From: a virus
Reading direction: 5' to 3' (one strand)
Length of the DNA stretch: 30,762 bases
Virus record (IMG/VR): IMGVR_UViG_3300037189_004823
Coordinates: 1 to 30,762 of that record
Shown in pieces: positions 2,691 to 28,321 of this stretch (the stretch's first letter is position 1; each line of letters opens with the position of its first letter). Both the position numbers and the translations under genes were made by a program. The notes below the pieces were generated by a model. It saw only the letters and a program-made list of their open reading frames with translations. It was not told the origin of the DNA and searched no databases.

Positions 2691-3020
2691 TTATTTCATT
2701 GCTCTTTTAGCCATTTTAGCGACTGTTTTGTTAGCGTCACTGTCGGGTAATGTCGGAGCAGGTGCTCCCTGCTGTCCTTTAAATACTATTGCGTCTCCTT
2801 GAATGTTCTTAATCAGGTCCTTTAAAGGAGGAACCTTGATCATTCCATACAAGTCTTCGACATCAAGAATAACGTCGTAATTTTGAAAATAGTTTAATAG
2901 GTCGTCTACGGTATAATCGTCTCCGAGTTCACCGTCTTTGAGATCCTGTGCTAATTGATTAGTCAATACTATGATCTTATCAACGACAGTTCGGTCTTGA
3001 TCTAGTTCAAAAAGAAGCAT
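2691..3020 (-). CDS. Conserved phage protein of unknown function
   Basis: 109 residues, acidic in the N-terminal 80 residues and with a basic tail ending AKMAKRAMK. There is no signal peptide, membrane segment or recognisable catalytic motif. It contains a helical segment with DDYTVDDLLNYFQNYDV and a Pro/Ala-rich linker before the tail. It follows the 231-residue gene by four bases and must share its late promoter (3749-3756), so a virion or assembly role is plausible but unproven. Confidence 0.6.
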   Translation of the reverse strand: MLLFELDQDRTVVDKIIVLTNQLAQDLKDGELGDDYTVDDLLNYFQNYDVILDVEDLYGMIKVPPLKDLIKNIQGDAIVFKGQQGAPAPTLPDSDANKTVAKMAKRAMK

Positions 3021-3024
3021 TTGA

Positions 3025-3720
3025 TTATCGCTTCATTCTTCCTACGTTGCCCATCGAATCATTTGGTTCTTCTGGGCTACCTAGATCAGGCATCGGAGGA
3101 AGTTCTTCCTCTGCAGGAGCTTCGTCGTCCAAATCAAAATCTATATCTACTTCTTCGTCCCCCATACCAGGTTCGCTTCCGAATTCGTTCATGTTGCCTT
3201 GACCAGTTAGGCCGTTAAGTGCATCTGTCATTGCGGTTTTTGCTGCCTGAAGTGCAGCGTTAAGTGTCGTCAACGCGCCATATGCCTGTTGGTTGTATGC
3301 ATCGCTTTCGGTAACTCCGATTTCAGATTGAATCGAGTCAATGATGGCAGGTAATTCTTTGACGAGCATATCATTAACATCTTCATAATACTTCTGAATC
3401 GAGTCGACCATGTCTTGTGCAGCAAGAATAACTTGTGATCTATTTACTTCTTCGTTTTCGAATACGATACGAGGAGTCTTAGCTGTCCTCAAGTGCTGAG
3501 ATAGTACTTGTTCCATAAACTTCAACTTCAGATAAGTTGGATCGTTCAGGGCTGTATGAAATTTAGGTGATCTTCTAGATTCGTTGATGAGGCTATTTAC
3601 TTTGTTAAGCATTACACGAGTCTTTGCTCGGTCTAAGTTAGATACATCAAAATTCATAGCAAAAGACTCGTGCAATGCTCTGGCTGCAACGTTCTTTTTG
3701 TCAAAATCATTTAGTTTCAT
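3025..3720 (-). CDS. Late helical protein with acidic tail, possible virion component
   Basis: 231 residues. The first 165 residues are predicted to be largely helical (for example FAMNFDVSNLDRAKTRVM and QVILAAQDMVDSIQKYYEDV). The C-terminal 60 residues are strongly acidic and proline-rich (GDEEVDIDFDLDDEAP, EEELPPMPDLG). A perfect-position late promoter and a GGAAGAG ribosome binding site precede the ATG. Proteins of this build occur in T4-like marine phages without a known role. Late timing suggests a structural or assembly function, for instance a chaperone or head protein. This assignment is an inference from timing and composition only. Confidence 0.65.
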   Translation of the reverse strand: MKLNDFDKKNVAARALHESFAMNFDVSNLDRAKTRVMLNKVNSLINESRRSPKFHTALNDPTYLKLKFMEQVLSQHLRTAKTPRIVFENEEVNRSQVILAAQDMVDSIQKYYEDVNDMLVKELPAIIDSIQSEIGVTESDAYNQQAYGALTTLNAALQAAKTAMTDALNGLTGQGNMNEFGSEPGMGDEEVDIDFDLDDEAPAEEELPPMPDLGSPEEPNDSMGNVGRMKR

Positions 3721-8180: not shown

Positions 8181-9581
8181 TCATTTCTTAAGGGAATTTA
8201 ATAGAGATTTTAATTTTGCGCTTTGAATGTCAGGAACTACTCGTTTTTCTTCAATGGATGGATGTGATATATCTATATTCGTCCCGACAGTGCTAGTATT
8301 CTTGATCTGACTCATGATCTGGCTTGCACTAGGCGGTGGCTTGCTATCACCTTCTGGGTCTTCATCAGTAATACGCATAGTCTCGATGTTATATTCTAAG
8401 TCAATCTTTTGACCTACGCCAGTCGAACTACGAGATTTCATACATTGGATCTGATATTTGCCGCGTTCGCGCATCGAACGAGAAGTAAAGATACCAAATA
8501 CATTGTCAGCAGTATTGATCTTTGAGATACCTCCTGCGATGTGACTGTGGTCGAACTCGATCTCTTCAACCGCTGAACGATTCAATTGCGACGCAGTTAC
8601 CATGAGAACGCCTAGTTCTTTCGCTAGGTTTCTAAGTTCTTCTGACACATACTTATCCTTGATAAACTGATCATTAGGATTGACTTTCACGCTGACCGGC
8701 ATGACAAGATCGAGGTAGTCGATCATCACGAAGTCTACCTTGATTCCGGTCTGAATCTGAACTTCTTTGAGATAGCTACGAATGTCGTTTACAGTGCTTT
8801 GCGCCGGCATACCCTTAACCCGATACTTACCGGACTTCTTGCCCATCATCACGACCTTCAAGCCAGTCGTTTCGATGTCCTTACGAATGTCTCTCGTACT
8901 CATGCTGGTCAACATCGCATCTGTGCGCAACGAAGTCAGTTCTTCTGATAGTTCGAGACTGACATACACGCCGCTGAGGCCTCTCTGTAGCCAGTTTAAC
9001 GCGATGTTCATCATGACAAGTGACTTACCAGAACCAGAACCACCTGCGAATATGTTTAACTCTCCGCGACTAAATCCACCATACAACAACCGATCCATCT
9101 GAGGCCAGCCAGTGCTGACTTGTCCGCCTGCGTTGAAATACTTATGGATGCGCTGTTTGGGATCAGCAAAGTAATCAGTGCCCATATCGCGTTGGAGGCT
9201 GATCTGAACTGCGTCTTTGATCAGTTTCTCGACTGGATCGAATTCTCCCTTCTCAAGCATGTCGGCTGCTTTGAGGATAGCTCGTTCAAGCTCCTGACGT
9301 TTTGTGAATGATTCAAATTCTTCCAAGAACCAATCGTAGTGCCCCTCATCTAGTTCAGGGATAGTATCGATAGTTGTTCCGGTCGTTGCTTTGATCTGCA
9401 AAGGATCAGGCATCACGCTATACTTTGTAGAATGTTCTACTATGAATTCTGCAACGGGTCGAAGAGTACGATCAAAATTTGCTGGATTCATGATATTCAT
9501 AACACGAGTATAAAGTTCCGCATTCGTAACCATCATTCTCAAGAATAGTTCTTGCACATCTGCGTTAAAGTTTTTTATCAT
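8181..9581 (-). CDS. 41: Replicative DNA helicase, DnaB/gp41-like
   Basis: 466 residues, close to T4 gp41 (475). The N-terminal helical domain (about 1-125) is followed by a RecA-type motor: Walker A GGSGSGKS (180-187), SLELS (208-212), Walker B FVMIDYLD (284-291) and a C-terminal HIAGGISKINTADNVFGIF with the conserved pattern of DnaB-family motif 4. Hexamers of this family unwind the fork 5'-3' on the lagging strand and carry the primase. The start overlaps the primase gene by 17 bases, so helicase and primase are made together, as their joint function requires. The C-terminus (about 410-466) is a polar tail rich in Ser and Pro. Confidence 0.95.
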   Translation of the reverse strand: MIKNFNADVQELFLRMMVTNAELYTRVMNIMNPANFDRTLRPVAEFIVEHSTKYSVMPDPLQIKATTGTTIDTIPELDEGHYDWFLEEFESFTKRQELERAILKAADMLEKGEFDPVEKLIKDAVQISLQRDMGTDYFADPKQRIHKYFNAGGQVSTGWPQMDRLLYGGFSRGELNIFAGGSGSGKSLVMMNIALNWLQRGLSGVYVSLELSEELTSLRTDAMLTSMSTRDIRKDIETTGLKVVMMGKKSGKYRVKGMPAQSTVNDIRSYLKEVQIQTGIKVDFVMIDYLDLVMPVSVKVNPNDQFIKDKYVSEELRNLAKELGVLMVTASQLNRSAVEEIEFDHSHIAGGISKINTADNVFGIFTSRSMRERGKYQIQCMKSRSSTGVGQKIDLEYNIETMRITDEDPEGDSKPPPSASQIMSQIKNTSTVGTNIDISHPSIEEKRVVPDIQSAKLKSLLNSLKK

Positions 9582-10536
9582 GTTTTCTTTTCGCCATTTC
9601 TACTTTGATTTTACTGGTTGTCGCATTTTGTAAGATAGATAAAAGTGTCGGTAGTTTACCATATTTTAGTACGGCATCATTCACATCTTTTACTTCTGAA
9701 CCCCAGGCTGGAATAGATACTTGAAACCCGAACTCTAATGCTTGCTCGCATATCAGTAATCCTGTTTTATCCTGATCAGGGACGACAATGACTCGTCTAT
9801 TAAGTTTACGTATAAGTCCTGCTTGTTCTTCACTAATTGTGTTGTGTGTAAGTGCTAATGCGTTAAGAGACAGTGCATCGAATATGCCTTCAACTACAAT
9901 ACATACTTCCCAGTTTGGTTTCTGTAAATCATATCCAAATACAAAACCAGATTGTTGATCTTTAATAAATTTGGGTGCGCGGTTATCAAGATAACGACTA
10001 GTGTGTCCCACTATCTTATTCTTGTATGTATAGGGAATGATGATTCTATTATTATTTCTTCCATGGTCATCTGGAGTAACCATGAACGGATAATCCGTAG
10101 CTTTCAGTCCCCTACTGTTGACATAATCTACGAATCGTTTATGCTTTGGATTATTCTCGTCTAATAGTTCAGCTACAGGAAGCTGAACTTCATCGAATTT
10201 GAGATTAAATTTTTGTTTGGTCTCGGTAACGTATTCGATCAAGTCCTTATGTCGTAGATTTTCTAGATTCCATCTGGTAATCTGACTCTCGTCGACACCC
10301 AACCAACCAAGAAACTGTTTGGTTGGAAACGAAAATTGTCTACCTAATATAAAGCTACACTTAAAATCACAGTTGAAACAATGAAAAGACCAGTTGTCAC
10401 CGTTTTGTTTGATGCCACCTCGCATTCTTTTGTCAACATTATGTCCGCGATGATGACAGCAGGGAGCGTTGAAGCTATACCAGCCATCTTGTGTACGCTT
10501 TTTCTTGCCTTGAATAAGGGTTAGGACATCAAACAT
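9565..10536 (-). CDS. 61: DNA primase, gp61/DnaG-like
   Basis: 323 residues, similar in size to T4 gp61 (342). The N-terminal zinc site is CCHH (26-29) with Cys53 and Cys56 in HCFNCDF. The TOPRIM core contains EGIFDAL (216-222) and PDQDKTG (253-259). It makes RNA primers for lagging-strand synthesis with the helicase encoded next. No other in-frame ATG lies near the start. The -10 element TACGAT ends five bases before the ATG, so the message would be leaderless or nearly so, and no Shine-Dalgarno sequence is visible. Confidence 0.95.
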   Translation of the reverse strand: MFDVLTLIQGKKKRTQDGWYSFNAPCCHHRGHNVDKRMRGGIKQNGDNWSFHCFNCDFKCSFILGRQFSFPTKQFLGWLGVDESQITRWNLENLRHKDLIEYVTETKQKFNLKFDEVQLPVAELLDENNPKHKRFVDYVNSRGLKATDYPFMVTPDDHGRNNNRIIIPYTYKNKIVGHTSRYLDNRAPKFIKDQQSGFVFGYDLQKPNWEVCIVVEGIFDALSLNALALTHNTISEEQAGLIRKLNRRVIVVPDQDKTGLLICEQALEFGFQVSIPAWGSEVKDVNDAVLKYGKLPTLLSILQNATTSKIKVEMAKRKHDKKL

Positions 10537-11442: not shown

Positions 11443-11823
11443 ATGAATACACCCGATTTTTTTAAGAAACTAAACGAAAATTACCCGTTTATAACGGTCT
11501 GTTCCTATGCCCAGCAAGACTATGTTGGTATTATTCAGAATCGAGATTACATGGTCACTACAATGTATGACTATGGTTCATTGGTTCTCCCTGAACTAAG
11601 AACAAAATTCTTAGAATTAGGTGAAGTCTGGTGGTGGGAATCAAATAGAACGATTCCCATTAACATGTTCTTAAAAGAAGAATGGGGTATCTTTAAACCT
11701 TATATTCGTACTTTTAATAATAAGAGCTTAGATATCGTCTATGGCCCGGTCGTTAGCATGACCGATTTCATGAAAAAGCGAGCAAAGCGCAAAAGCGTCA
11801 TGTTCATTAAACGGATGCCTTGA
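11443..11823 (+). CDS. Conserved phage protein of unknown function, the only plus-strand gene
   Basis: 126 residues. FFKKLNENYPFITVCSYAQQDYVGIIQNRD and GEVWWWESNRTIPINMFLKEEWGIFKPYIRTF give a Trp/Tyr/Phe-rich globular core, and the tail is basic (KKRAKRKSVMFIKRMP). The composition and lack of a coherent reading frame opposite argue that it is real, and similar proteins occur in other aquatic T4-like phages. A -10-like TATACT ends five bases before the ATG and TGTAAATA, a late-like element, overlaps it; there is no Shine-Dalgarno sequence. It converges on the peptide-deformylase remnant, whose reading frame overlaps its 3' end. Function unknown. Confidence 0.7.
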   Translation: MNTPDFFKKLNENYPFITVCSYAQQDYVGIIQNRDYMVTTMYDYGSLVLPELRTKFLELGEVWWWESNRTIPINMFLKEEWGIFKPYIRTFNNKSLDIVYGPVVSMTDFMKKRAKRKSVMFIKRMP

Positions 11824-11933
11824 TTACTTTTGCTAAGTTTTTCTTGCGTTTCTCTTTGGCTATCTTGATACAAGTTCCCGGCCCTTTGATCGAACGTGAT
11901 TCCTAGCAGGTGATCAAACTCGTGCAGCTTCTG
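11807..11933 (-). pseudogene. Peptide deformylase, C-terminal remnant with one frameshift
   Basis: After a TGA at 11936-11934 the minus strand reads QKLHEFDHLLGITFDQRAG. HEFDHLLG is the HExDH zinc/catalytic motif of peptide deformylases followed by the usual GITF strand. One base too many in the GGG near 11885 shifts the frame; the next frame continues IKIAKEKRKKNLAKVIKASV and a stop, which is a normal basic deformylase tail. The N-terminal two thirds are missing: upstream DNA belongs to the mini-DnaE gene, whose stop codon lies inside the HEFDH codons. Deformylases remove formyl groups from nascent proteins and are common in aquatic T4-like phages. Confidence 0.75.
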
Positions 11934-12492
11934 TCAAAAGATTAAGATGAACCACAACCAGCATTGCGTAGGCAAGGCTATGCGAACGCTTAAAATGGTA
12001 GCCAGTATCATCTTTATCCCAGACTGTTTCGTTGATCTCTTTCCAAGACTTGTTTAATAGATGTCGTTTTGCAGGTCTGATTACTGCTAGAAACATCGCT
12101 AGTCTAGGAATAGAATCTATGGGTTCCGGCATTCGTCTGATTGTATTATATTGATTACCTAGGTGTATCAGTTGCTCGACAACTTTCCTATTTTTCAACA
12201 TTGACCAATCTGGTTCTTGCATCAAGCTAATCAGATGTTCTTCATCACGAACTAGATTGTAGACGTGAACATTTAGTAAATCTAGTTTAAAATATCCGCG
12301 ATCTTCAGCTTCCTTGTAGTCGATAGACGCCATGTCATAAATAGGATCATACGGTATACTAGTGAGGTATACCCCAGATGCATGTTTCCTGATAGGATTT
12401 ACGTTTCTCATCGACGCAGGAATATATTTGATCAAGCTAAGTATCTTGTCACGGTCGCCTGTGTCAATATCAACGTCTGAATCAATTCTCAT
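11914..12492 (-). CDS. Miniature DnaE-like (family C) DNA polymerase protein
   Basis: 192 residues against about 1160 in bacterial DnaE. The order of DnaE landmarks is kept: SDVDID (5-10), matching the metal-binding PDFDVDF, with Asp8 and Asp10; RKHASGVYLTS (35-45), like the HAGGVVI strand; EAEDRGYFKLDLLNV (61-74), like the vEyaGLvKfDfLGL segment, with the third Asp71; LAMFLAVIRPAKRH (131-144), like ALVALFRPGP; and GYHFKRSHSLAYAM (164-177), like GYGFNKSHSAAYAL. PHP, tau-binding and OB regions are absent. Whether it polymerises is unknown. It follows the 92-residue gene with no gap, in the unit headed by a DnaQ-type exonuclease. Its last residues, TEAARV, are encoded by deformylase-remnant DNA, so the original C-terminus has changed. 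Confidence 0.7.
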   Translation of the reverse strand: MRIDSDVDIDTGDRDKILSLIKYIPASMRNVNPIRKHASGVYLTSIPYDPIYDMASIDYKEAEDRGYFKLDLLNVHVYNLVRDEEHLISLMQEPDWSMLKNRKVVEQLIHLGNQYNTIRRMPEPIDSIPRLAMFLAVIRPAKRHLLNKSWKEINETVWDKDDTGYHFKRSHSLAYAMLVVVHLNLLTEAARV

Positions 12493-12771
12493 CTATTTCC
12501 ATTTCAATAGAAACAAAACATATAACTTTTCATCAACAATGTCAAACTTATCGGTAATCATACCGTCAACGATATGTATCCTAAGACCATAGTTTCGTTC
12601 TAAGTGAGTGCTGAAGTTGGCAAGATCGAAATTTTCGAGTAAGTCTTCGTCGATAGCCTTGACAAGGACTTTCCTGATCATGTTCCAATAGTCCTGTCGT
12701 TTCTTGCGAAACTCGATATCAGGATCATCTGAGTCAAAGTCTTCGATGTTATTAGGAACATTCATTCTCAT
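12493..12771 (-). CDS. Small acidic protein between exonuclease and mini-DnaE
   Basis: 92 residues from ATG 12771, which shares its A with the exonuclease stop (TGATG); a GTG three bases earlier is the less likely start. The N-terminus is acidic (NNIEDFDSDDPDIEF), then helical (YWNMIRKVLVKAIDEDLLENF). The C-terminus FDIVDEKLYVLFLLKWK closely resembles the end of the 73-residue protein at 14176 (FEIVDESKYIIFLLMK), so it belongs to the family of small proteins described there. Its place between an exonuclease and a polymerase-like protein suggests an accessory role, but no motif shows it. Confidence 0.65.
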   Translation of the reverse strand: MRMNVPNNIEDFDSDDPDIEFRKKRQDYWNMIRKVLVKAIDEDLLENFDLANFSTHLERNYGLRIHIVDGMITDKFDIVDEKLYVLFLLKWK

Positions 12772-13322
12772 CACTTGAGGTGAATAAAACCTGCATTATA
12801 GAGTTTTTGATATGCACGCTGAACTACAATCGCTTGATGTTCCGCATCTTCTACTGCTTTGTGCGAGGTAACATGCCCGCCGTCCTTGAGACTGACACCT
12901 GCAATATCATATATCGTGCGACAATCTCGAATGGCCCAAAACTGCCAGGGTACACGCATCTCTAGGTCTTTGAAGGCCGACTCTGCGATCATGATGTCAA
13001 ATACAGAACCATTGGACCAGATATTCTTTTTGTTCCAACAGAACTTGTAAAGTTGTTCCATACATTCACGATAGCTAATACGATCACGGTCGCCCATCGC
13101 TTCATTGATGGCTTCGGAACTCTGTTCACTCCACCAACGCAGGGTATCATCACTTATAGTGCGATTATATACATCGGTCTGCTCATCTATCGTAGGACGA
13201 AGTTCTAGGCGCTCAATAACACCAGAACCCATTGGGTCAAACAGTACCGCACCGATAGTGAGAATAACAGTTGACGTAGCTGTGTCAAGCGTTTCCATGT
13301 CTAGCATGATGGCAGTAGCCAT
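12771..13322 (-). CDS. DnaQ-like 3'-5' exonuclease (DEDDh type)
   Basis: 183 residues. The exonuclease motifs are Exo I LDMETLD (7-13) with Asp8 and Glu10, Exo II SNGSVFDIMI with Asp109, and Exo III SHKAVEDAEHQA with His154 and Asp159. The spacing and SNGxxFD motif fit the T4 DexA / exodeoxyribonuclease VIII branch rather than bacterial DnaQ itself. It degrades DNA from 3' ends; in phages this can serve host DNA breakdown, repair or proofreading. It is the first gene after a sigma70-type promoter, with AAAGG eight bases before the ATG. The mini-DnaE follows in the same unit, so an exonuclease-polymerase pairing is possible. Confidence 0.9.
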   Translation of the reverse strand: MATAIMLDMETLDTATSTVILTIGAVLFDPMGSGVIERLELRPTIDEQTDVYNRTISDDTLRWWSEQSSEAINEAMGDRDRISYRECMEQLYKFCWNKKNIWSNGSVFDIMIAESAFKDLEMRVPWQFWAIRDCRTIYDIAGVSLKDGGHVTSHKAVEDAEHQAIVVQRAYQKLYNAGFIHLK

Positions 13323-13354
13323 ATAAAATTCACCTTTCTTTTTAGTATATCATC

Positions 13355-13383
13355 ATAATACACGATGATTTAGTGGATGTCAA
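13355..13383 (-). promoter_or_regulatory. Sigma70-type promoter of the exonuclease / mini-DnaE unit
   Basis: Minus strand TTGACA (13383-13378), 17-base spacer, TATTAT (13360-13355). The leader contains AAAGG before ATG 13322, so this promoter has an ordinary leader. Confidence 0.85.
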
Positions 13384-13395
13384 GTACAAATAAAT

Positions 13396-13683
13396 CTATT
13401 CGCACAATTTATAGTGGGTATATGTCTTTTCATCTAATATGATGTAGCCAGGTACTTTGAACCAATTGCCAAGATATCTCGGTTCCTTGTAATGGTCACG
13501 ACACCAATGCTCTAGCTTTCCGGCGGTTCTAGATATACGTTCCGATCCGATCGGAATGCGAATGAACAGTCTGTCTTCCCAGACACCATCTACATCAATC
13601 TTCTTCTTGATCTTCTGCGTCTGGGGCACTGCATCAATTATTTCATCTTGATAAGAAGTTAACCCCATACTAGTCTGAACCAT
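13396..13683 (-). CDS. Small phage protein of unknown function
   Basis: 95 residues, basic, from ATG 13683 (a second ATG, 13668, is possible). It contains KIKKKIDVDGVWEDRLFIRIP and LEHWCRDHYKEPRYLGNWF. The end, GYIILDEKTYTHYKLCE, fits the same pattern as its neighbours: a beta strand, an acidic turn, an aromatic, then x-[FY]-x-L. It overlaps the gene upstream by 25 bases. It is the last gene before the promoter at 13355 and probably the end of the early unit begun near 17565. Confidence 0.6.
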   Translation of the reverse strand: MVQTSMGLTSYQDEIIDAVPQTQKIKKKIDVDGVWEDRLFIRIPIGSERISRTAGKLEHWCRDHYKEPRYLGNWFKVPGYIILDEKTYTHYKLCE

Positions 13684-13907
13684 ATAAAATCTCTCTCATA
13701 TCTAAACTTAACTTTCCATATTCCGTCAACAAATCCCCACCTACTGTGTTTCTCGCAACTGTCGATTTGGTTATATAACCAGTCGAGCATATCAGTATAG
13801 TAAACATGACCGTTTGGATCAAATATCACGGCTGTTTCGTACCAGCCCGGATTAGTATTTTCCCAACCTTTACTGCTGTCGTAGTTTGCCAGCTGCTGAT
13901 CTTGCAT
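13659..13907 (-). CDS. Small phage protein of unknown function, F-x-L-x-W family
   Basis: 82 residues from ATG 13907, which shares its A with the previous stop (TGATG), preceded by GAGGTGG. It is rich in Trp and Tyr (GWENTNPGWYETAVIF, YTDMLDWLYNQID, SRWGFVDGIWKVKF). It ends ERDFIWFRLVWG, matching the KKHAMLFKLRWA end of the gene before it. The shared end and tandem position point to duplication. No function can be assigned. Confidence 0.65.
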   Translation of the reverse strand: MQDQQLANYDSSKGWENTNPGWYETAVIFDPNGHVYYTDMLDWLYNQIDSCEKHSRWGFVDGIWKVKFRYERDFIWFRLVWG

Positions 13908-14176
13908 CAAGCCCACCTCAATTTAAAAAGCATGGCATGTTTTTTTTCTTTAAACCAAAAACTAATGTCAGATTCATGATGGCACTCCCAAACAATACGT
14001 TTAGTAGTATGGTTGTATCCGGAGTTCCCGAATGTCATATGGCACCAAGTGACCATCTTGAGTAGTTCAGAGAAAGAATACATGATTGGATTGGCACAAT
14101 AGCTGGGATAGTCGGGCATCTTACGCTGCACCGATATAATTTGTATCGTTCGAGCTACAGGTTCAACCTTGTCCAT
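13907..14176 (-). CDS. Small phage protein of unknown function, F-x-L-x-W family
   Basis: 89 residues. The N-terminal half (VEPVARTIQIISVQRK) is followed by YCANPIMYSFSELLKMVTWCHMTFGNSGYNHTTKRIVWECHHES in several short segments. The end, DISFWFKEKKHAMLFKLRWA, has the form seen repeatedly in small proteins of aquatic T4-like phages. The ATG overlaps the previous stop (TAATG). Function unknown. Confidence 0.65.
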   Translation of the reverse strand: MDKVEPVARTIQIISVQRKMPDYPSYCANPIMYSFSELLKMVTWCHMTFGNSGYNHTTKRIVWECHHESDISFWFKEKKHAMLFKLRWA

Positions 14177-14397
14177 TATTTCATCAACAAAAATATTATA
14201 TATTTGGATTCATCTACGATTTCAAACTCTCTGTCTGGCCAGCTTATTAACTGCATTCCCCATTTTGGTTCTAAAATCTGATTGACATAATCATTGCTTA
14301 TGCCGATCTGTTTCCAATCATATCCTGATTCCAACATCCAAAATACTAGATCATTAAACACAGTTGAACTCAACGTAAACCGTTTGCTGTATGCCAT
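14176..14397 (-). CDS. Small phage protein of unknown function, F-x-L family
   Basis: 73 residues. FNDLVFWMLESGYDWKQIG is followed by NQILEPKWGMQLISWPDREFEIVDESKYIIFLLMK in parts; the last 15 residues nearly repeat the end of the 92-residue protein at 12493 (FDIVDEKLYVLFLLKWK). It starts two bases after the stop of the zinc-finger gene. Function unknown; the C-terminal strand-turn-strand may be a shared binding element. Confidence 0.65.
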   Translation of the reverse strand: MAYSKRFTLSSTVFNDLVFWMLESGYDWKQIGISNDYVNQILEPKWGMQLISWPDREFEIVDESKYIIFLLMK

Positions 14398-17605: not shown

Positions 17606-19060
17606 TCAATACTCTAACTTTTCTACAGAGGTAGGATACTGTGCATCCTTGTAGAAAGCTTTTCTTTGAGTAAGGTGCCTTTTTGCAAACTTACAGGTTG
17701 AGGTGATGTCCCAAATTTGCACAAAATCTTTGTCTGATGCCTTACGAAGTCCTCGGCCGATCGATTGAATAACTCGGACAAATGATTTGCCTGGTTCGAT
17801 TAGTACTACATTGAACAGTCTAGGAACATTAATACCTACTGCCGCTACGCCGTAAGTGCAGATTAATATCTTATCGTCACTGATGGCAATTTCATCATAT
17901 TCTTCTTTCCTTTCAGTAAGCTTAGTGCTGCCGTTAACAACCACTGAATTAGATAATCTACTAGCAAGCTCTTTGCCCGCATTGACTCGATCAACTAGAA
18001 CTAATGTATTTCCTGTCTCGTTTACCTTTTGAATCAATTCCGCTATCTTGTCTAGTCGATTAGAATCTTCCAATAGATATTTCAATTCAGATTGATAGTT
18101 TGTAAATTCTACTTTATCCTTAAGTTGAACGATGTTCACGTGACATCTAGCAAGGACACCCCTGTCTTGCAATTCACTTGCTGCCAACTTACTAGTGACT
18201 GGACCCAACGAAACTAGGATAGACATCTGATCCATCGGTTCTTTGGGAATCGTACCTGTTAGACCCCAGCGAATGGGGATATTACTGAATACACCAGTTA
18301 GCATTGTCTTAAGTACCTCAGCTTTAGCTTGGTGCACTTCATCAACCATAACACAGACAATATCTTCAAAGAAAAATTCATCGGATTCTTCTTCTCCTGC
18401 ATCTGCTTTGTTTTTGAAAAGGTTATTTAGCGACTGCCAAGTACAAATAGTATGTGTCTTACCATAATCCTTACGATCACCGAAATACACTCCTACGTCA
18501 AGTCCTAGATTGATATAATCTGCTTCTGTCTGTACCACTAGGCTCTTGTTAGGGACGATCACAAGAGAACGTCCTAGATGCTCTACAGACTTAGATAGAG
18601 CAGCAGTCACAAGAGTCTTGCCCGCCCCAGTCGCGGCCTCTTGAAGTGATTGAGTGTTCTCCAAGAAATTGTTTACGATCTCAATCTGGTAATCGCGCAA
18701 TATTACGGGTTGACCTGCGCGTTCGTGACCTTCAGGCCACGAGATACCCGAGAAAGTCTCTTCTGTTACCTTCTCAAACATGAATTCTGGATGTAGAAGT
18801 CTACGATCATCTAGTTCAATTTGATAATCATAGTCGATCAAGATCGGGATAATTTGATCGAGCAGATTCATATATGTACTACCAGCAAGTGAGAAATAAC
18901 TGATCTTGCCGTTCCATCGACCCAATCGGACTGCAGGAAGATATCGCGCCCCCGGTTTCTCGAATTCAAACTTTTTATGTAAAAACTTTCGGACATCGAG
19001 GTCTAGTCCGGTGACGGATACATTCACTTCGTCTTTTATTATGATTTTTGCTAGTTTCAT
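17606..19060 (-). CDS. uvsW: UvsW-type superfamily 2 DNA helicase
   Basis: 484 residues from ATG 19060 (T4 UvsW is about 500). The N-terminal 90 residues form the UvsW accessory domain with RLGRWNGKISYF. The motor has motif I ATGAGKT (143-149), motif II DEVH (240-243), motif III GLTGT (266-270) and motif VI QSIGRGLR near residue 435. UvsW remodels forks and recombination intermediates, removes R-loops and ends origin-dependent replication. ATG 19060 overlaps the stop of the HARP-like gene (ATGA); an ATG 39 bases earlier is possible but less well placed. Pairing with a HARP-like partner suggests an annealing-helicase activity. Confidence 0.93.
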   Translation of the reverse strand: MKLAKIIIKDEVNVSVTGLDLDVRKFLHKKFEFEKPGARYLPAVRLGRWNGKISYFSLAGSTYMNLLDQIIPILIDYDYQIELDDRRLLHPEFMFEKVTEETFSGISWPEGHERAGQPVILRDYQIEIVNNFLENTQSLQEAATGAGKTLVTAALSKSVEHLGRSLVIVPNKSLVVQTEADYINLGLDVGVYFGDRKDYGKTHTICTWQSLNNLFKNKADAGEEESDEFFFEDIVCVMVDEVHQAKAEVLKTMLTGVFSNIPIRWGLTGTIPKEPMDQMSILVSLGPVTSKLAASELQDRGVLARCHVNIVQLKDKVEFTNYQSELKYLLEDSNRLDKIAELIQKVNETGNTLVLVDRVNAGKELASRLSNSVVVNGSTKLTERKEEYDEIAISDDKILICTYGVAAVGINVPRLFNVVLIEPGKSFVRVIQSIGRGLRKASDKDFVQIWDITSTCKFAKRHLTQRKAFYKDAQYPTSVEKLEY

Positions 19061-20049
19061 GTGATATCTATCGGCCTCGAATTTTTTAAGATAATGCATT
19101 TAGTTATCTTTGGTGCAAGCCCAAAGATATGAGTAACGTTTTGTATTTGGACAAGATTATTACCTGAATAATTGTCTAACACAACACTCGAAATATAGTG
19201 TTCATTTAGTTTACTGAGAATCTGATTTCTGATGGTTCGACCGCTGCCATATGCCATACCCTGCCCTAAGGTCACATTAGCACAACCAATGTCTACTAGC
19301 CACTGGACTGCGTGTGCCATATCATCTAGGTCTACTTCAGTGATAAATTCTGATGCAAACTTAAGTTCCGGGCGATTATCTGTAATTTTTGAATCTACTT
19401 TAATTCCATATTGTGATAGCAGATATAGTGTTTTCATATCCAATTTAAGTTCGACGTCCTGTAACAATTCGTGAACAACATGATTGGACGCAGCGATGAA
19501 AAGGTATCCGTTGTGATCGAACAGTGTGGGTTCCCATACGGTCGCGCTATCATAATAAGATAACTTGTCTAGTATAGCCGAAAGATCGTTGCTATAGCTA
19601 ACATTACTGAAGTATTTAGGAAGAGTATGATGTGCGATTTTAAATGCAGTAGTAGAGAAGGGGGCCCGGTAAACTTTGGAATCTTTGCTCCATTCAAAAG
19701 AATTGTCTGGGATCTCTCTGAATTTGGCAATAAACGCTTTATTAAAGGGGACTCTGATTTGAAGTTCACCGTCTATAGTAGAAACGAACGCTCCGGTATA
19801 TTCTACTGTACTCTCTACGAGAGAGGCATTCCATGGAAGTTTTTTAAGTTCTTCTTTGATATAACCTGTCTTAGTTAACTGTTTTTTATATTTACTAATA
19901 AGATTGTCAAACAACATTGCTTGATTAGAAGTGATTCGTTGCGTGTTACCGATAATTGTTTGCAGGTTGGTCATGAACTTATAATCATACTGGCTCAACG
20001 AAATTTTTCCACTGAGGAAAAAATACAAAAGCTGCTCTTTGTTCTTCAT
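19057..20049 (-). CDS. HARP-like partner of the UvsW helicase (putative)
   Basis: 330 residues from ATG 20049. An earlier ATG at 20085 lies inside the promoter and is rejected. The N-terminal part has LTSNQ-type RITSNQAMLFDNLISKYKKQL (39-59), seen in phage replication and repair proteins. IPDNSFEW (113-120) and VYRAPF (126-131) follow the pattern of HARP modules of SMARCAL1 (iP..ryd...k.W.vp). The remainder is alpha/beta with no NTPase motif. HARP modules direct annealing helicases to forked DNA. As the gene is directly coupled to uvsW, I infer that it supplies such a module in trans. The leader is almost absent. Confidence 0.6.
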   Translation of the reverse strand: MKNKEQLLYFFLSGKISLSQYDYKFMTNLQTIIGNTQRITSNQAMLFDNLISKYKKQLTKTGYIKEELKKLPWNASLVESTVEYTGAFVSTIDGELQIRVPFNKAFIAKFREIPDNSFEWSKDSKVYRAPFSTTAFKIAHHTLPKYFSNVSYSNDLSAILDKLSYYDSATVWEPTLFDHNGYLFIAASNHVVHELLQDVELKLDMKTLYLLSQYGIKVDSKITDNRPELKFASEFITEVDLDDMAHAVQWLVDIGCANVTLGQGMAYGSGRTIRNQILSKLNEHYISSVVLDNYSGNNLVQIQNVTHIFGLAPKITKCIILKNSRPIDIT

Positions 20050-20148: not shown

Positions 20149-21156
20149 CTACCCACGCTTCATGCAAGTACTTTGAGCGAGATTGGCCCAGTTCTTCGGG
20201 GACATCTTGATAAGATCAGCGATCTTGAGAGCCATACGGATAGACAATTCACGCAGCTTATTGTTGTTCGCTTCCATATATGCGAGTACTTGTTCACCTT
20301 CATTATTTTGGAAGTTATAATCACTGAACAGGCCGCCAGTAGCATCACGATCAACCTGACGGATCCTAAGCATCATGTCACGAGCAGTATCAATCGTCAG
20401 ATCGAGGAAGTGACAACGAGACTGAAGGGCTTCAAGGTGATCTTGCAGACGCTTAGACTTGATATTGTCGAACTTAAGGTTCGTGATAAAGATGCACGAG
20501 CCATTAAAGTTGAAGCTATTGGGAATGCCTTCTTCACGCAGCAAGCGAGAATCCGAATTCCAACAAATCTTACGACGCTTGCCGCTGTCAAGAGCCGCCT
20601 TCAGGATGTTCAACGCGAGATCATCCATGAACACACTATCACAGTCGTCGAAAACCAAGATGTTCTTCTTGTCACTATACTTGTACAGCTGGGTATAGAG
20701 ACCAAGAGCAGTCATCGCACCCTTGACAACTTGATACCGAATACGATTGCCTGCGATCTTATCAAACATCGAAGCCTTTTCAAGCTGGGTCTCGACACCA
20801 AACGACTTGCCGACTCCCGGCGGTCCCGAAACGATCATCGCACGGATGTCACCGTTAATGCAGGCCGTCGACATCTCGTCGAGGATCTCGAACCGAGTAG
20901 CAATACGGTTCATCGCTTCTTCGTCAGTTTCCTCTGCCTTGACTTCAGCAGCGATCGGTTCTCCGTCGATCTCAAAATCGTCAGGACCGTTGACCTTGAT
21001 CTTGATGTCTTCGATAGCCACGGGAAAAAATCCGCCGTTCTTCACAGTAATGTATCCACCCTTTGCACCGATTTGAAAACCCTTAACGAGTTCGAAACTC
21101 GCATCGATTACGGGATAGTTACGGTATTCACCGGACTTAACGAGGACGCGAGACAT
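20149..21156 (-). CDS. AAA family ATPase
   Basis: 335 residues from ATG 21156, chosen because AAGGA lies six bases upstream and a strong promoter 32 bases upstream. The N-terminal 90 residues are a small beta-rich domain. Walker A is GPPGVGKS (111-118), Walker B ILVFDDCD (166-173), and sensor 1 lies in CIFITN (221-226). A helical lid follows, ending with MKIADLIKMSP-like segments (ALKIADLIKMS). Such single-domain AAA proteins act as ring-shaped motors on DNA or proteins. This family is common in T4-like phages without a firm role. The reading frame stays open upstream into the Ala-rich gene, see that entry. Confidence 0.85.
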   Translation of the reverse strand: MSRVLVKSGEYRNYPVIDASFELVKGFQIGAKGGYITVKNGGFFPVAIEDIKIKVNGPDDFEIDGEPIAAEVKAEETDEEAMNRIATRFEILDEMSTACINGDIRAMIVSGPPGVGKSFGVETQLEKASMFDKIAGNRIRYQVVKGAMTALGLYTQLYKYSDKKNILVFDDCDSVFMDDLALNILKAALDSGKRRKICWNSDSRLLREEGIPNSFNFNGSCIFITNLKFDNIKSKRLQDHLEALQSRCHFLDLTIDTARDMMLRIRQVDRDATGGLFSDYNFQNNEGEQVLAYMEANNNKLRELSIRMALKIADLIKMSPKNWANLAQSTCMKRG

Positions 21157-21777
21157 GTTCATTCCTTTTGAATCGTTTCTATAATTCAATGTAGCAAAAG
21201 GGGCATCTGATGTCAACCTTTTATTTTCGTATTCGGACAAAATAATGTTGATAAAGATTTCAAATAGGTCAGCTTCGGCAGCGGCAGTGTTAGCGTTAAC
21301 AGCAGCATAAGCAGTGGTAGGATAGGGGTTGCGGAACGTCGTGAATGAATCGCGCGCGGGAGCGGGCACCAAAGCAAGTGATGCATCGCGAGCAGCATAA
21401 TAAGCAGTATCAGCAACACTAGCAGCAGCAGTACTAGCAGCAGCACCAGCAGCATGAGCAGCAGCGGCACGAGCATCAACCAAATCACCATTACCATTCA
21501 AGGCATCGATGACCTGTTGACAGGCATCTTTTACCGTTTGCCAGTAATCAGGAATTGGGATCGACACAACCTTGATTTCCGCCGCAGCCATGGCATATTC
21601 GATACACGCGATACGAAACTTGCGCATCACTTCATCTGGATCGATGGTATTCCAAGTAAACGAAGTACTGTTGAACTTTTTCTTGAATTCTACCGTATCG
21701 AAATGGCGTATCAGGTCGTTGAACTGCTCGGGCGGTTCACAAAGAACCGCCCACATCTCAGCTTGAGTATCAAGCAT
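21157..21777 (-). CDS. Ala-rich helical protein, no stop before the AAA ATPase gene
   Basis: From ATG 21777 (a promoter is properly placed upstream) this frame runs 207 codons and then straight into the AAA ATPase without a stop. Residues 1-100 are ordinary (EQFNDLIRHFDTVEFKKKF). Residues about 100-180 are an Ala-rich helix repeat (ARAAAAHAAGAAAS, ADTAYYAARDAS). The natural end appears to be EIFINIILSEYENK; the next 27 codons (RLTSDAPFATLNYRND) are simply the promoter and leader of the ATPase gene read as codons. The stop was probably lost, so a 542-residue fusion may be made. Function of the Ala-rich family is unknown. Confidence 0.6.
21188..21216 (-). promoter_or_regulatory. Sigma70-type promoter of the AAA ATPase gene, inside an open frame
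   Basis: Minus strand TTGACA (21216-21211), 17-base spacer ending TGC (extended -10), TACATT (21193-21188), then GAATTATAGA, a box shared with the promoters at 23386 and 23939. It lies within the open frame that runs from the Ala-rich gene. Confidence 0.9.
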
Positions 21778-22147: not shown

Positions 22148-23356
22148 TTAGCTGTTGTATTTTACGTCAGGGAACCACGCATCACGAATTTCTTCATACC
22201 GTGCGGTCTTGGTCAGGTTGTTGCGAATCATATTATGCACTAGAGGAAGGATATTCGGCAGAGTATACTCATCGAAGATTCTGAAAAGGATCGGGCGGAC
22301 GAATGCGTCATGCTTCTGTGCTTCATTAAGAGCAAACGCTTTTCGATCCATACCAGCAACTTTCAGTGCAAGATGGTCAGCTTGGATCTTATCAACTACC
22401 CGATAGACTGCGTTGTTAAAATCAGATTCGAACTTAGTGATACGAACACGATCTTCATCGATAAGATGCGCCTTGACATCATCAAGATGTTCCTCAAGAA
22501 TCAGTTCGACAATGTTGCGATCCTGCAGGATAGCTTCCTTAGCCTTATGAATCTGAAGGTACCAATGACACTTCACCTTGGCCATATGACCATCAGCGAA
22601 GCGAATAACAAAACCTTCAACGTCAGTGAGCGTCGAAACATACTCGAGGAAAGCCTTCATATCCGTAATGGGATCGAAGCCTCGAACTTCGGGGATGTCA
22701 TACAACCCTCGATTATAATAGTTGAGAGGCATATATTTGCCGGTCTTGATTTCTCGGACCGCGGTAAGGATCAGTTGATCTTCTTGGCCGTAGTCAAGAA
22801 CAATCTTTTGCTTGCGCGAGCACCATTCGAAAATCGGGCAAAAGCCCAACTCCAAAAGATCGCGAGCATAATCCACGTATTCAATATTGGAATTCTTAAC
22901 GAACTCTTCAACCGGAGCAGCCACATCAGTCAGCCCCATCTTGGTGCCCCAGCGGATCTCGCCGTTGAGCAGGAAAGGAACGATCATAGACCCGTCCAGC
23001 TTCTCAAGGATAACGTGCGGCTGCGACAAGTCAACGATGTGATCTTGCGTTTCAGTACGCTCGTTGACATTGAAGAACTTATGGAACGGACGACGGATTA
23101 TATCACCAGTCTCCGCATCAAAGATGATGCCGCGGCACTCACGCCGAACACGAGCGTTAAAGTTCTCTATTTCATAGTGATCATGGTTTGCGCGAAGATC
23201 ACCATAGTGGATTACTTCCGGAAACGTATCCTCGAACATCACGTTATAGTTGATGACCGTGTAGCCTTCTTTCTGGGCTACTGTAAATTCGGCACGACCT
23301 TCAATCGCCGGCAAAACATCAGATATGTTAGTGATCCTGGGGAAATCATAGTTCAT
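22148..23356 (-). CDS. rnlA: RNA ligase, T4 RnlA family
   Basis: 402 residues (T4 RnlA 374). RRECRGIIFD (71-80) precedes the nucleotidyl motif I EKLDGS (118-123) with the AMP-accepting Lys119. FEWCSR (176-181) fits motif IIIa, EGFVIR (247-252) motif IV and MAKVKCHWY (258-266) motif V. The C-terminal 130 residues are the helical domain typical of this family. Such ligases seal RNA ends, in T4 repairing host tRNA cut by anticodon nucleases as a phage defence. No polynucleotide kinase is seen in the window. The gene has its own sigma70-type promoter and AAGGA seven bases before the ATG. Confidence 0.92.
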   Translation of the reverse strand: MNYDFPRITNISDVLPAIEGRAEFTVAQKEGYTVINYNVMFEDTFPEVIHYGDLRANHDHYEIENFNARVRRECRGIIFDAETGDIIRRPFHKFFNVNERTETQDHIVDLSQPHVILEKLDGSMIVPFLLNGEIRWGTKMGLTDVAAPVEEFVKNSNIEYVDYARDLLELGFCPIFEWCSRKQKIVLDYGQEDQLILTAVREIKTGKYMPLNYYNRGLYDIPEVRGFDPITDMKAFLEYVSTLTDVEGFVIRFADGHMAKVKCHWYLQIHKAKEAILQDRNIVELILEEHLDDVKAHLIDEDRVRITKFESDFNNAVYRVVDKIQADHLALKVAGMDRKAFALNEAQKHDAFVRPILFRIFDEYTLPNILPLVHNMIRNNLTKTARYEEIRDAWFPDVKYNS

Positions 23357-23385
23357 GACATATTCCTTATTTCGATCTATAATTC

Positions 23386-23414
23386 AATATAGACTATATC
23401 AAAAATAAAGTCAA
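23386..23414 (-). promoter_or_regulatory. Sigma70-type promoter of the RNA ligase gene
   Basis: Minus strand TTGACT (23414-23409), 17-base spacer, TATATT (23391-23386), then GAATTATAGA (shared box). The leader carries AAGGA. Confidence 0.9.
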
Positions 23415-23418
23415 GCTG

Positions 23419-23694
23419 TTATACACTAATCCATGATGGGGGAGGAACAATTGTGCTAAGAATATTACCGTGAGAGTCTATCTCTCGTACTTCGACTTGA
23501 GGACGATTTTGATAATGCTTATTCGGAGCAGAATATCCCGGAGGAAGAGAGCGAGTAACGTTTTGCAACGCGCCCGCTTCAATCGCAGCATGGCGGCGGA
23601 TGTACTGTTTAGCTTGTTGCAAATTTGAAGTATATGGATTAGCCCGCCAGGGATACATGTATTGATTCATTTCGTTGTCATACAATACAAACAT
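23419..23694 (-). CDS. Small phage protein of unknown function
   Basis: 91 residues. It begins FVLYDNEMNQYMYPWRANPYTSNLQQAKQYIRRHAAIEAG in pieces that look like a short beta hairpin and a helix, and ends VREIDSHGNILSTIVPPPSW. The start directly follows the stop of the 71-residue gene. The DSHGNILS strand-turn is common in small phage regulators, but no family is recognised. Confidence 0.6.
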   Translation of the reverse strand: MFVLYDNEMNQYMYPWRANPYTSNLQQAKQYIRRHAAIEAGALQNVTRSLPPGYSAPNKHYQNRPQVEVREIDSHGNILSTIVPPPSWISV

Positions 23695-23910
23695 TTATTT
23701 GCCCCTGATGGCATCAAACACCGAATTCTGAAGCTCAGCAGCTTCTTCATGCGAGAGATAGAAGTCAGTAGTTGGATCGTAGTAGGCACCTTCCTTTGGA
23801 TCGTAGTAACTCACTCGACCGTTTGGGTAGAAAAAGGGACCTTCAAGGCCCTTGCGGGCCTGATACTTAGAACGGAAATCTTGAGAAATGTTCAAAACTT
23901 GATAACCCAT
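23695..23910 (-). CDS. Small phage protein of unknown function
   Basis: 71 residues, with an aromatic middle (GPFFYPNGRVSYYDPKEG, AYYDPTTDFYLSHEEAAE) containing two YYDP repeats. It is the first gene after a strong sigma70-type promoter, and GGAG precedes the ATG. Short early proteins of this type often act in host takeover; no motif supports a specific role here. Confidence 0.6.
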   Translation of the reverse strand: MGYQVLNISQDFRSKYQARKGLEGPFFYPNGRVSYYDPKEGAYYDPTTDFYLSHEEAAELQNSVFDAIRGK

Positions 23911-23938
23911 GTCGTGTCTCCGTTGCTATCTATAATTC

Positions 23939-23967
23939 AATATAACAAAACGGGCAACTAATGTCAA
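23939..23967 (-). promoter_or_regulatory. Sigma70-type promoter of two small early genes
   Basis: Minus strand TTGACA (23967-23962), 17-base spacer ending TGT (extended -10), TATATT (23944-23939), then GAATTATAGA, identical in box and -10 to the RNA-ligase promoter. Confidence 0.9.
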
Positions 23968-23976
23968 CCGAAAAAG

Positions 23977-25071
23977 TTAGAAAAGGTTGATTTTTTCCCA
24001 AGGCAGATAGCTTTTTCCGAAGTGACCATAGTTAGTAGTACTGCTATAGATCGGAGAAAACAGGTCGAATCGGTCGATTATGCCTTTTGGAGTTAGGTCG
24101 ACATTCTTGATGATCCATTCAGTCAAGTCTCTGCTGTCCCTATCACTTTCGACATACACACTAGTAGGATTTACCATTCCAATTGCATAACTGAGTTGTA
24201 CCGTAGCCCACTCTGCTTTACCAGAAGCAACTAGATTTTTTGCGAGATATCTAGCCATGTATGCTGCTGACCTATCTACTTTGGTAGGGTCTTTACCAGA
24301 GAATGCGCCGCCGCCATGGGGAGATGAGCCGCCGTATGTATCAACTATAATCTTGCGACCAGTTAATCCGGTATCTCCAACGGGGCCGCCTATCACAAAG
24401 CGTCCGGTTGGATTAATCAAAAATTCAGTATTATTGTCAACTAGATTAGCAGGAATCACTGCACGGATAATCGCTTCGATGCTAGCTCTAACTAATGCAA
24501 TGTTGATGTCGGCATGATGTTGTGATGAGCATACAATTTTCGCGATGCGACTTACTGTGCTGTCATCATTGTATTCTACCGTTACCTGACTTTTAGCATC
24601 GGGGCCTAACCACGTGCCTTCATTAGAGCGGCGAACCTGGGACAATGCTTCTACAATCCTATGTGAATAATAGATAGGAGCCGGCATAAAATTTTCAGTT
24701 TCTTTACATGCATATCCGAACATCAAACCTTGATCTCCGGCGCCGAAATTGTCAGTGCCTAAAGCAATGTCCGAACTTTGCTCGTGCATAAAATTAGTGA
24801 CGTTGAGGGTTTTCCAATGAAACCCCTCTTGTTCATACCCAATGTTCTTTACGACACGCCTAACCATATATTCTAAATCAAGGCTATCTATCTCGCCCTT
24901 AAACTCACCTGCGACAACTACCTGATCAGTAGTAACCAATGTCTCACACGCACATCTTAGTGAAGTATCTCTATTTGCCATTATCATATCTAGGATGCCG
25001 TCACTAATGGCATCAGCAACTTTATCTGGGTGACCTTCGGAAACGCTTTCACTGGTAAATAGATATGTCAC
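23977..25071 (-). CDS. metK: S-adenosylmethionine synthetase
   Basis: 364 residues from GTG 25071 (bacterial MetK about 384). A TTG 21 bases earlier is open too, but alignment to LFTSESVSEGHPDK favours the GTG, with AGAGGA ten bases upstream. Signatures: GHPDK (13-17) binding ATP, GAGDQGLMFGY (110-120), GDTGLTGRKI, and the loop GGGAFSGKDPTKVDRSAA near residue 245. It makes S-adenosylmethionine from methionine and ATP. In a phage this can feed DNA methylation or other methyl transfers, or replace host supply. No methylase or SAM-using enzyme is in the window. It lies 53 bases after the 1065-residue virion gene. Confidence 0.96.
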   Translation of the reverse strand: MTYLFTSESVSEGHPDKVADAISDGILDMIMANRDTSLRCACETLVTTDQVVVAGEFKGEIDSLDLEYMVRRVVKNIGYEQEGFHWKTLNVTNFMHEQSSDIALGTDNFGAGDQGLMFGYACKETENFMPAPIYYSHRIVEALSQVRRSNEGTWLGPDAKSQVTVEYNDDSTVSRIAKIVCSSQHHADINIALVRASIEAIIRAVIPANLVDNNTEFLINPTGRFVIGGPVGDTGLTGRKIIVDTYGGSSPHGGGAFSGKDPTKVDRSAAYMARYLAKNLVASGKAEWATVQLSYAIGMVNPTSVYVESDRDSRDLTEWIIKNVDLTPKGIIDRFDLFSPIYSSTTNYGHFGKSYLPWEKINLF

Positions 25072-25123
25072 TGTATATAAATCCTCTATCAATAGTTATG
25101 TAGAAAACAAAAGTATCAAAAAT

Positions 25124-28100: not shown

Positions 28101-28321
28101 ATAGGATTTCCCGGTTCCCCTCTCAGATAGGCGTCGTTGATCGCATATGTCAAACAACGCAATACTGTATGATTGATCAAAGATCCGGGTGTATAAGAAG
28201 CATTAGTTTTACTCGCGCCCATATACGATGCAGCGACCGGATTAACGTTTAGTCCAATATTACTTAGGAACTGACCGAATACGTTCATTCCTAATGGGCT
28301 CTGTTTTCCTGTTTCTGCCAT
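25124..28321 (-). CDS. Large virion structural protein with adhesin-type repeats
   Basis: 1065 residues, low in charge and rich in Thr, Ser, Gly and Asn. The N-terminus (GKQSPLGMNVFGQFLSNIGL) occurs in large structural proteins of aquatic T4-like phages. At about 95-155 a fibre-type module has GMTLSGTGVTPGTTI. The middle (about 300-620) is helical. At about 660-770 a GGGYGRGNAPVPSITISGGSG strand repeat in two copies with ATAIVSIG matches common phage adhesin modules. The tail is Pro-rich and ends in a Cys-containing CNCDCWIN. Baseplate- or tail-associated placement is likely. The upstream start has only a weak ribosome site. Confidence 0.75.
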   Translation of the reverse strand: MAETGKQSPLGMNVFGQFLSNIGLNVNPVAASYMGASKTNASYTPGSLINHTVLRCLTYAINDAYLRGEPGNPIKTATLANCIISGAGSPSGDILQVGSVTSGKEGKIELGMTLSGTGVTPGTTIIGNLSNSDGTTSGSRWLLSTSSTVSTPTPMVATFTPGNTTITNDTYDQLISIGSGTLPVLGNAKPPTYVAEDPAGIWTTAAVNYGIQNGYPSALPGPATSGYGIEGITLQGQSATWLPYNTTNPNISVTQWGYLRLHALQAWNEFNWNSDEPTAANPNYSEFTNSFSQISGWITQENQTISIASNSAQFLDGVYSNMNDLMTGDIAGVNLSSFEFGTDLINLGKVIDLQDIESFGLPSNLLKAITTAGALTKDLSLALLAAGLDINEIQDISDGTIITPTKLQEQKIYGAYLIITGQNLIDVLAPLQCKTLGLTALSDLLDVKMMFPISYAAMTVPIYNADVVPTNSKTYYLLYVDGAINMALDTPTMRTYVGIQIPTSVPSTYERALNSTNYNDVPIGFGAYLRDIIPLDQAIAAGAWSFAMRQVRNIKFTDINRLGKAIQGLENNANLPLTAGTSKPTAQISTDAANSITALGSGPNGTYTMSDAFGCLTGLPYPWELLQNRIQNVSTTKLHNIYRENYLATTWSEAQVTIDCATRTVGPTTYYSIIGITVTDPGGGYGRGNAPVPSITISGGSGATAIVSIGTDDMDMTTFGKVTTVRISSSGIETTSLPTATIEAPPIGALPVTVTGEIATGGTNTISGTVAWPDPMNSVVQGYVSQANAEISSIYQNNIEQSVYLNAYWDICGAQLKREQRTRYKALTPVSIPKNYFSTSYPNQLSNFVDTLPAAAQDTRPHMTVQTLEALADLNTVGGQSLVAMMRESRNQTRLALAGLELDNSIPDTPTSDSQKAVTTNGTIGGAVDGITNLTTGTDYTIPSWPGNIDDGGNVLTPSPIGTYNPDLPKYQPTAGTAPGDITGPLLGADPNPSSGPRVPIGPTTEILSPITLVPFIKPAPEYDPVNLPPNLDPRFITSTILPATLSIPEAIDHVINCNCDCWIN

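Follow-up and report, generated by a model that had tools for sequence, protein, structure and literature searches.

A 192-residue phage protein is very probably the C-terminal half of a split, minimal DnaE-type DNA polymerase

Can a gene for 192 residues encode the palm of a DnaE-type (family C) DNA polymerase, and could such a protein work by itself? The question is raised by a 30,762-nucleotide stretch of viral DNA, IMG/VR record IMGVR_UViG_3300037189_004823 (hereafter the window, which is the whole record), in which an initial annotation had placed a miniature DnaE palm at positions 11914–12492. The open reading frame (ORF) proved exact: it runs on the minus strand from 12492 to 11914, starts with ATG and encodes 192 amino acids. 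We found that its product is very probably the C-terminal half of a split DnaE. The proposed palm homology held in family, profile and fold comparisons, but the protein is not self-contained: the GRGS motif of the Pol-beta-type palm is absent from it and sits in a separate small gene.

The window protein is a true homologue of the palm and fingers of DnaE, corresponding to approximately residues 397–781 of the Escherichia coli enzyme, and its likeness to DnaE goes beyond chance. We draw this link because PHROG families, profile–profile comparison and fold agree. PHROG 11778 (‘DNA polymerase’) matched residues 5–189 of the 192 with an E value of 1.5e-58, and the phage DnaE family PHROG 405 (1190 positions) matched with an E value of 2e-5. 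The profile–profile check that the initial annotation had suggested came out in its favour, as a profile of 83 C-half sequences aligned by hhalign with seven DnaE sequences at an E value of 3.6e-5 and a probability of 71. A search of 16 records with the fingers model PF17657 gave nine places in eight records; eight of these are the C half itself, and in two relatives, XacN1 and CM1, this gene scored over the cut-off.

Consistent with these matches, the AlphaFold2 model of the C half (mean predicted local distance difference test score, pLDDT, of 91.9) had Pol III alpha chains as its 13 best Foldseek matches (best E value 0.0021). VIA-align, which re-ranks Foldseek matches and is no independent search, put 14 family C entries on top, two of them titled just ‘DNA polymerase with inhibitor’ and taken as PolC from their numbering; the next row had a Z score of 3.2. 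The model superposed on PolC 3f2b (Geobacillus) with a Z score of 9.5 and a root mean square deviation (r.m.s.d.) of 3.5 over 187 residues, and on 3e0d with a Z score of 9.2, so that PolC and DnaE are tied (9.5 versus 9.2). On E. coli 2hnh, model residues 4–192 aligned with chain residues 400–781 (Z 8.6, r.m.s.d. 3.9 over 182). The top matches are thus Pol III alpha and PolC, as had been predicted, and not an unrelated fold.

Where is the rest of the palm? Searching the 16 records behind our loci with PF07733 (DNA_pol3_alpha) revealed a second small gene in 14 of them (11 named phages and three metagenomic contigs), over the cut-off in every case; two weak places, W05:56579 (E value 0.008) and W04:123058 (E value 0.06), fell below it. 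These N-half genes encode about 165–185 residues that close with GRGS and then, at or close to the C-terminus, EF(L/F); GRGS was kept in 78 of 78 N halves and in 18 of 18 of a diverse set. The N half is not in the 30.8-kb window, its expected place being about 7 kb past the left end. A sibling contig, IMGVR_UViG_3300032315_000356, which shares 99.99% identity with the window across 8576 bases, encodes the C half at 23463–24038 and the N half at 43153–43656, on the same strand and 19.1 kb apart. The sibling N half has 168 amino acids, matches PHROG 11127 (‘DNA polymerase’) with an E value of 1.9e-42 and scores over the Pfam cut-off for DNA_pol3_alpha.

The N half continues the DnaE alignment upstream. 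That of the sibling aligned without gaps to E. coli DnaE residues 321–393 (E value 1e-7, probability 94), and in the PDB the N-half profile matched nine sequences of Pol III alpha, with a best E value of 1.4e-4. Its model (pLDDT 90.7) superposed on residues 278–393 of E. coli 2hnh (Z 8.9, r.m.s.d. 2.6 over 93), and its best structural match was 9qrn (Z 10.7). The N half stops at E. coli residue 393 and the C half begins at 397–400; the same abutting ends were seen in the structures of the Thermus (455/459), Mycobacterium tuberculosis (413/417) and PolC (965/968) enzymes. The two halves therefore abut between FERFLN and D401. Purifying selection acts on both, the ratio of non-synonymous to synonymous substitution rates (dN/dS) being 0.20 in the C half and 0.054 in the N half, from one pair each, the other eight pairs being saturated. 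Residues 1–67 of the N half (3001–3201 of locus L048, on the sibling contig) were confidently predicted and lie outside the DnaE alignments.

Nine residues of the C half, Asp6, Asp8, Asp10, His37, Lys69, Asp71, Arg139, His171 and Tyr175 (E. coli D401, D403, D405, H511, K553, D555, R639, H760 and Y764, in that order), were invariant in 84 of 84 distinct sequences, that of the window included, and likewise in 19 of 19 sequences of a set with greater diversity, in keeping with the initial annotation's expectation that homologues would conserve the aspartates. The catalytic triad of family C, D401/D403/D555, is present as Asp6, Asp8 and Asp71. The triad had first been placed at Asp8, Asp10 and Asp71; Asp71 (D555) and Asp8 (D403) stand, whereas Asp10 is the counterpart of D405 and the catalytic pair is Asp6 and Asp8. 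The register of this pair rests on the motif (DFDVDF in E. coli, DVDID(T/F) here) because the hhalign alignment begins after DVDID. The geometry of the three aspartates, which had been expected to meet in space, was judged solely by superposition of the model on DnaE and PolC. On the minus strand of the window, the codons of Asp6–Asp10 lie at 12463..12477 and those of Lys69-Leu70-Asp71 at 12280..12288.

The available text of PMC3919608 gives D401, D403 and D555 as absolutely conserved in family C, and D405 as kept in the DnaE groups but replaced by Asn in PolC. That Asn is absent from the phage family, which has Asp10 in all 84 and all 19 sequences, arguing for a DnaE-type rather than a PolC-type enzyme. 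H760 has been proposed as a steric gate against ribonucleotides, according to the accessible part of PMC8485763. Its counterpart, His171, invariant as noted, lies in the GYHFKRSHSLAY motif (11968..12003, minus strand), a region in which BLASTP found nine of 15 residues identical to E. coli DnaE. The retention of this His would argue for dNTPs (deoxynucleoside triphosphates) as the substrate.

These counts come from 86 C-half and 89 N-half proteins, which gave 84 and 78 distinct sequences. Before the 84 were counted, 14 of 22 loci of one set and two of 80 of another were dropped as repeats or incomplete. Two pattern searches found at least 598 and at least 538 relatives, and the best 80 of each were used. 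Loci found in this way had been selected with GRGSS, DIDID or K(L/M)D, so the conservation of those residues is partly selected; His37, Arg139, His171 and Glu165 of the N half lie outside the patterns, and the 11 named phages came by tblastn.

The two halves occur together in most phages. With tblastn, 63 phage records matched the C half and 64 the N half (60 of each among the matches listed); both halves were found in 60 of the 63 records that have the C half, the N half being judged among the matches listed. The three C-half records beyond the 60 listed were taken to be RAS14, Slicko01 and Slickus01. As for the three records in which the pair was not seen, Slicko01, a phage of 141 kb, has the N half by profile (E value 2.7e-19) and hence both halves; the 109-kb record W12-3 is without it, also by profile; and Slickus01 is absent from the N-half matches listed. 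The N-half ORF itself was read for 11 of the 60 phages. Along the records of 12 named phages, the halves are 11–224 kb apart and always share a strand. Related halves were also seen on contigs of 267 and 364 kb.

Among bacterial genomes, four of 56 matched stretches encode a relative, all in records titled MAG (metagenome-assembled genome). One of the four is the 335-kb contig PBPT01000016.1 (locus L241), filed under a Neomarinimicrobiota genome, which carries a C half; an N half is present in the same genome, as is a 1145-residue frame that matches the N half weakly and probably encodes the cell's own DnaE. This contig is perhaps a jumbo phage binned with the bacterium.

Several observations weigh against reading the window gene as half of a working DnaE-type enzyme. 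The N half of this virus is inferred from the sibling contig, as it falls outside the virus's own 30.8-kb record. Among the metagenomic contigs examined, mostly the longer ones, the N half was found in nine of 15 with the C half, and the C half in ten of 17 with the N half. All of these contigs are classed as linear, so that many of them are probably fragments; the N half was absent from C-half contigs of 200, 191 and 121 kb, and the C half from N-half contigs of 250, 121, 118 and 108 kb, among others. By itself the window protein had no match in Pfam, its BLASTP likeness to E. coli DnaE is weak (best E value 0.004, at the GYxFxxSHSxAYA motif), and the Foldseek E values of both halves are all above 0.001. 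PDB sequence searches with the C half found no DnaE: phmmer gave one unrelated chain (E value 0.66) and the profile gave none.

The missing and altered parts bear on function more directly. Between Asp10 and His37 lie 26 residues where E. coli has 105, so the region that we take to be the thumb is gone; Arg139 and His171 are separated by 31 residues against 120, so Q687, E688 and R709 are lost as well, together with what is presumably the index-finger region. Both regions are missing from both halves, and Q687, E688 and R709 are invariant in seven DnaE sequences. R390, also invariant in the seven, corresponds in the gapless register of the N half and E. coli to residue 165 of the N half; of 78 sequences, 76 have Glu there and two have Asp, and in the diverse set 18 of 18 have Glu. 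Together, the missing regions and the R390 change argue against an ordinary DnaE mechanism, and activity may be weak, altered or absent. The initial annotation had listed PHP, clamp and OB parts as missing, and rightly so, as there were zero PHP matches in either half (Pfam, E values up to 10) and no length is left in either for clamp-binding or OB parts; the list was incomplete, in that the thumb, the index-finger region and the GRGS strand are missing from the window protein too. No third piece with the missing fingers was found, and small unknown genes could hide one; the ninth PF17657 place, W05:201372, is in a 558-residue frame (E value 0.016), and a second set of four records gave none. 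A clamp-binding C-terminal tail was considered and dropped, as the tails vary in length and sequence by eye.

Replication genes are among the neighbours of the C half. On the minus strand of the window, the DNA primase (PHROG 47, Toprim; 9565..10536) and the DnaB-like replicative helicase (8181..9581) lie downstream of the mini gene, and the convergent conserved gene of PHROG 11637 (11443..11823, plus strand) faces it tail to tail. One gene upstream is a DnaQ-type exonuclease (12771..13322, minus strand; PF16473 Rv2179c-like and PHROG 255), with a 93-residue ORF lacking a family match in between (12493..12774, minus strand), whose stop comes directly before the ATG of the mini gene. Across 115 neighbourhood loci, which include repeats of the same contigs, a primase was near the C half in 92 within the available flanks and a DnaB-like helicase in 69, the flanks often being too short to reach the helicase. 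The PHROG 11637 gene was near in 104, always on the opposite strand. The 93-residue ORF had tblastn matches in 35 loci, mostly further upstream (median offset −1079).

The exonuclease was found on the same strand in 79 of the 115 loci, a median of 560 bases before the mini gene. The same neighbourhood search found it in none of 13 named-phage loci; the records of GAP32 and RaK2 have an annotated exonuclease 4.4 kb upstream, and that of XacN1 has one 2.3 kb downstream. It is possible that the DnaQ-type exonuclease would serve the split enzyme as a proofreading partner. In two of the five phages examined (RaK2 and XacN1), a gene annotated as a clamp loader is no more than 2 kb from the N half; in Slicko01 it is instead beside the C half. 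We had considered a primase-side half and a clamp-side half; these placements weaken this idea, and it was dropped.

As the initial annotation had supposed for T4-like phages, a family B polymerase is present alongside the pair: in 11 of 11 named phages, in Slicko01 and in three of six long metagenomic contigs. It was not found in the window fragment or in the sibling contig. Separately, the family B match extends over two frames in PA5oct (W01; 825 and 379 amino acids), Atu_ph07 (W02; 578 and 418) and Slicko01 (W12; 578 and 322), which suggests a split or interrupted gene.

The remaining genes that we identified are all on the minus strand: a DNA helicase (PHROG 16; 17606–19099), T4 RNA ligase 1 (22148–23356), S-adenosylmethionine synthetase (23977–25092), a 1065-residue protein without a Pfam match and with a weak PHROG match to head closure Hc2 (25124–28321; E value 6e-5) and the ribonucleotide reductase small subunit (28947–30041). 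A run of ORFs of 73–95 residues occupies 12493–14397 (minus strand); four that were scanned lacked Pfam and PHROG matches, and in a five-sequence comparison two resembled each other in a stretch near the C-terminus (60% over 15 residues, E value about 1e-3) and are perhaps diverged paralogues. Two plus-strand ORFs, at 20173–21171 (332 residues) and 22310–23392 (360 residues), are antisense to minus-strand genes, have no Pfam match and are perhaps by-products of codon usage.

Is this a new type of polymerase? It is not, as a split minimal Pol III alpha had already been described in 2021. As the available text of Iyer et al. (PMC7824862) has it, group 2.2 jumbo phages have a phage-specific minimal Pol III alpha beside their family B polymerase, split into separate proteins from distant genes; its authors think that the two parts reconstitute the enzyme, and they suggest that it helps to synthesize one strand or takes part in repair. 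The same text gives this enzyme no other Pol III domains. The window gene is like it in all essentials covered there and is a new member, from a 30.8-kb metagenomic fragment: the stand-alone metal-binding C half is present, as is, on the sibling contig, the separate and distant N-half gene. Group 2.2 consists of jumbo phages above 200 kb, whereas the window is a fragment and Slicko01, with both halves, has 141 kb. We saw no differences from PHROG 11778 for the C half or PHROG 11127 for the N half. In the accessible parts of the respective reports, a truncated alpha of 172 amino acids is annotated in phage CBB (PMC5259590), and an alpha and an epsilon subunit are reported for Atu_ph07 (PMC6102473). 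We found no experimental work on the split Pol III alpha in the open-access literature that we searched.

With E. coli DnaE the phage enzyme shares the palm core, the Asp triad, the positions of D405, H511, K553, R639 and H760, and the order of motifs; it differs in being encoded by two genes, in the Glu or Asp at the R390 position and in being without a PHP match, thumb or index-finger region. Cyanobacterial DnaE is likewise one DnaE from two genes. Its pieces are joined through an intein and together are of full size. The split by inteins is mentioned in the available text of PMC3919608. In the phages, by contrast, the N half ends at the FERFLN equivalent and the C half begins immediately ahead of D401, so that there is no space for an intein; no intein search was made.

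We propose that the product of the window gene is the C-terminal subunit of a minimal, DnaE-type Pol III alpha specified by two genes. The C half would supply the metal-binding aspartates, the proposed steric-gate His and part of the fingers, and the second protein, of about 170 amino acids, the GRGS nucleotide-binding strand. The halves would fold together without a linker and complete one Pol-beta-type palm, a reconstitution that Iyer et al. had already proposed. The pair may insert dNTPs over short stretches, at primers, gaps or lesions, and leave bulk synthesis to the family B polymerase. Judging from sequences and predicted models, we lean towards the view that the two halves together would be an active DNA polymerase.

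The main rival to this reading is a pair that is inactive or has an altered, nucleotidyl transferase activity. The loss of the thumb and index-finger regions, the Glu or Asp at the R390 position in all 78 N halves and the family B polymerase in all 11 named phages would each suit a replisome subunit with little or no catalytic activity, a leftover of Pol III alpha that senses nucleotides or serves as a scaffold and so aids the primase, helicase or clamp loader. We judge this unlikely, if worth serious thought, since invariance of the three catalytic Asp residues, Lys69 and His171 in 84 of 84 sequences is unexpected for a dead enzyme. The pair might instead be a nucleotidyl transferase with another reaction, such as untemplated addition or transfer to protein or RNA; this would fit the missing duplex-gripping thumb and the altered nucleotide pocket, with Glu or Asp for R390 and the R709 region deleted. 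The kept steric-gate candidate and the replication genes nearby speak against it, and we hold it to be distinctly doubtful. DnaE-like surfaces could also let the pair join or titrate host Pol III as a decoy, and phages that shut off host replication are common. A decoy is nevertheless very unlikely: neither half has a PHP match or the length for host-binding clamp or tau parts, and the catalytic residues would need no conservation.

Two further readings concern the window protein itself. All three catalytic Asp residues are in one protein, as a stand-alone miniature polymerase would have them, yet the GRGS strand belongs to a partner protein that was found alongside it in 60 of 63 records, which makes such an enzyme highly improbable. 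That the gene is a decaying fragment would fit its shortness compared with DnaE and the broken frame of locus L017, which has an in-frame stop about 69 residues after the start; conservation (dN/dS 0.20 for the one pair, catalytic residues kept in 84 distinct sequences) disfavours this, and we find it scarcely credible. We return, then, to the two-gene polymerase. As a long shot, it may be an obligate two-protein enzyme whose active site forms only on assembly, so that synthesis would be gated by the halves meeting at the fork; without a thumb and with Glu for R390, its substrate might be an altered triphosphate, for example a dNTP modified by the phage, or it might carry out short, non-processive primer extension unlike that of known DnaE.

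Beyond what the available text of Iyer et al. contains, our analysis adds the exact junction, the reversal at R390, the kept H760 and D405 counterparts and the presence of both halves in a 141-kb phage. That text reads the split Pol III alpha as a model of the ancestral replicase, and two small proteins make this reading testable. Should the pair prove active, its two chains, with about 360 residues in total and no thumb, PHP or clamp domains, would make up a very small polymerase of the DnaE type; such an enzyme would test the minimum needs of a family C palm and would explain the second polymerase kept by large T4-like phages that own a family B enzyme.
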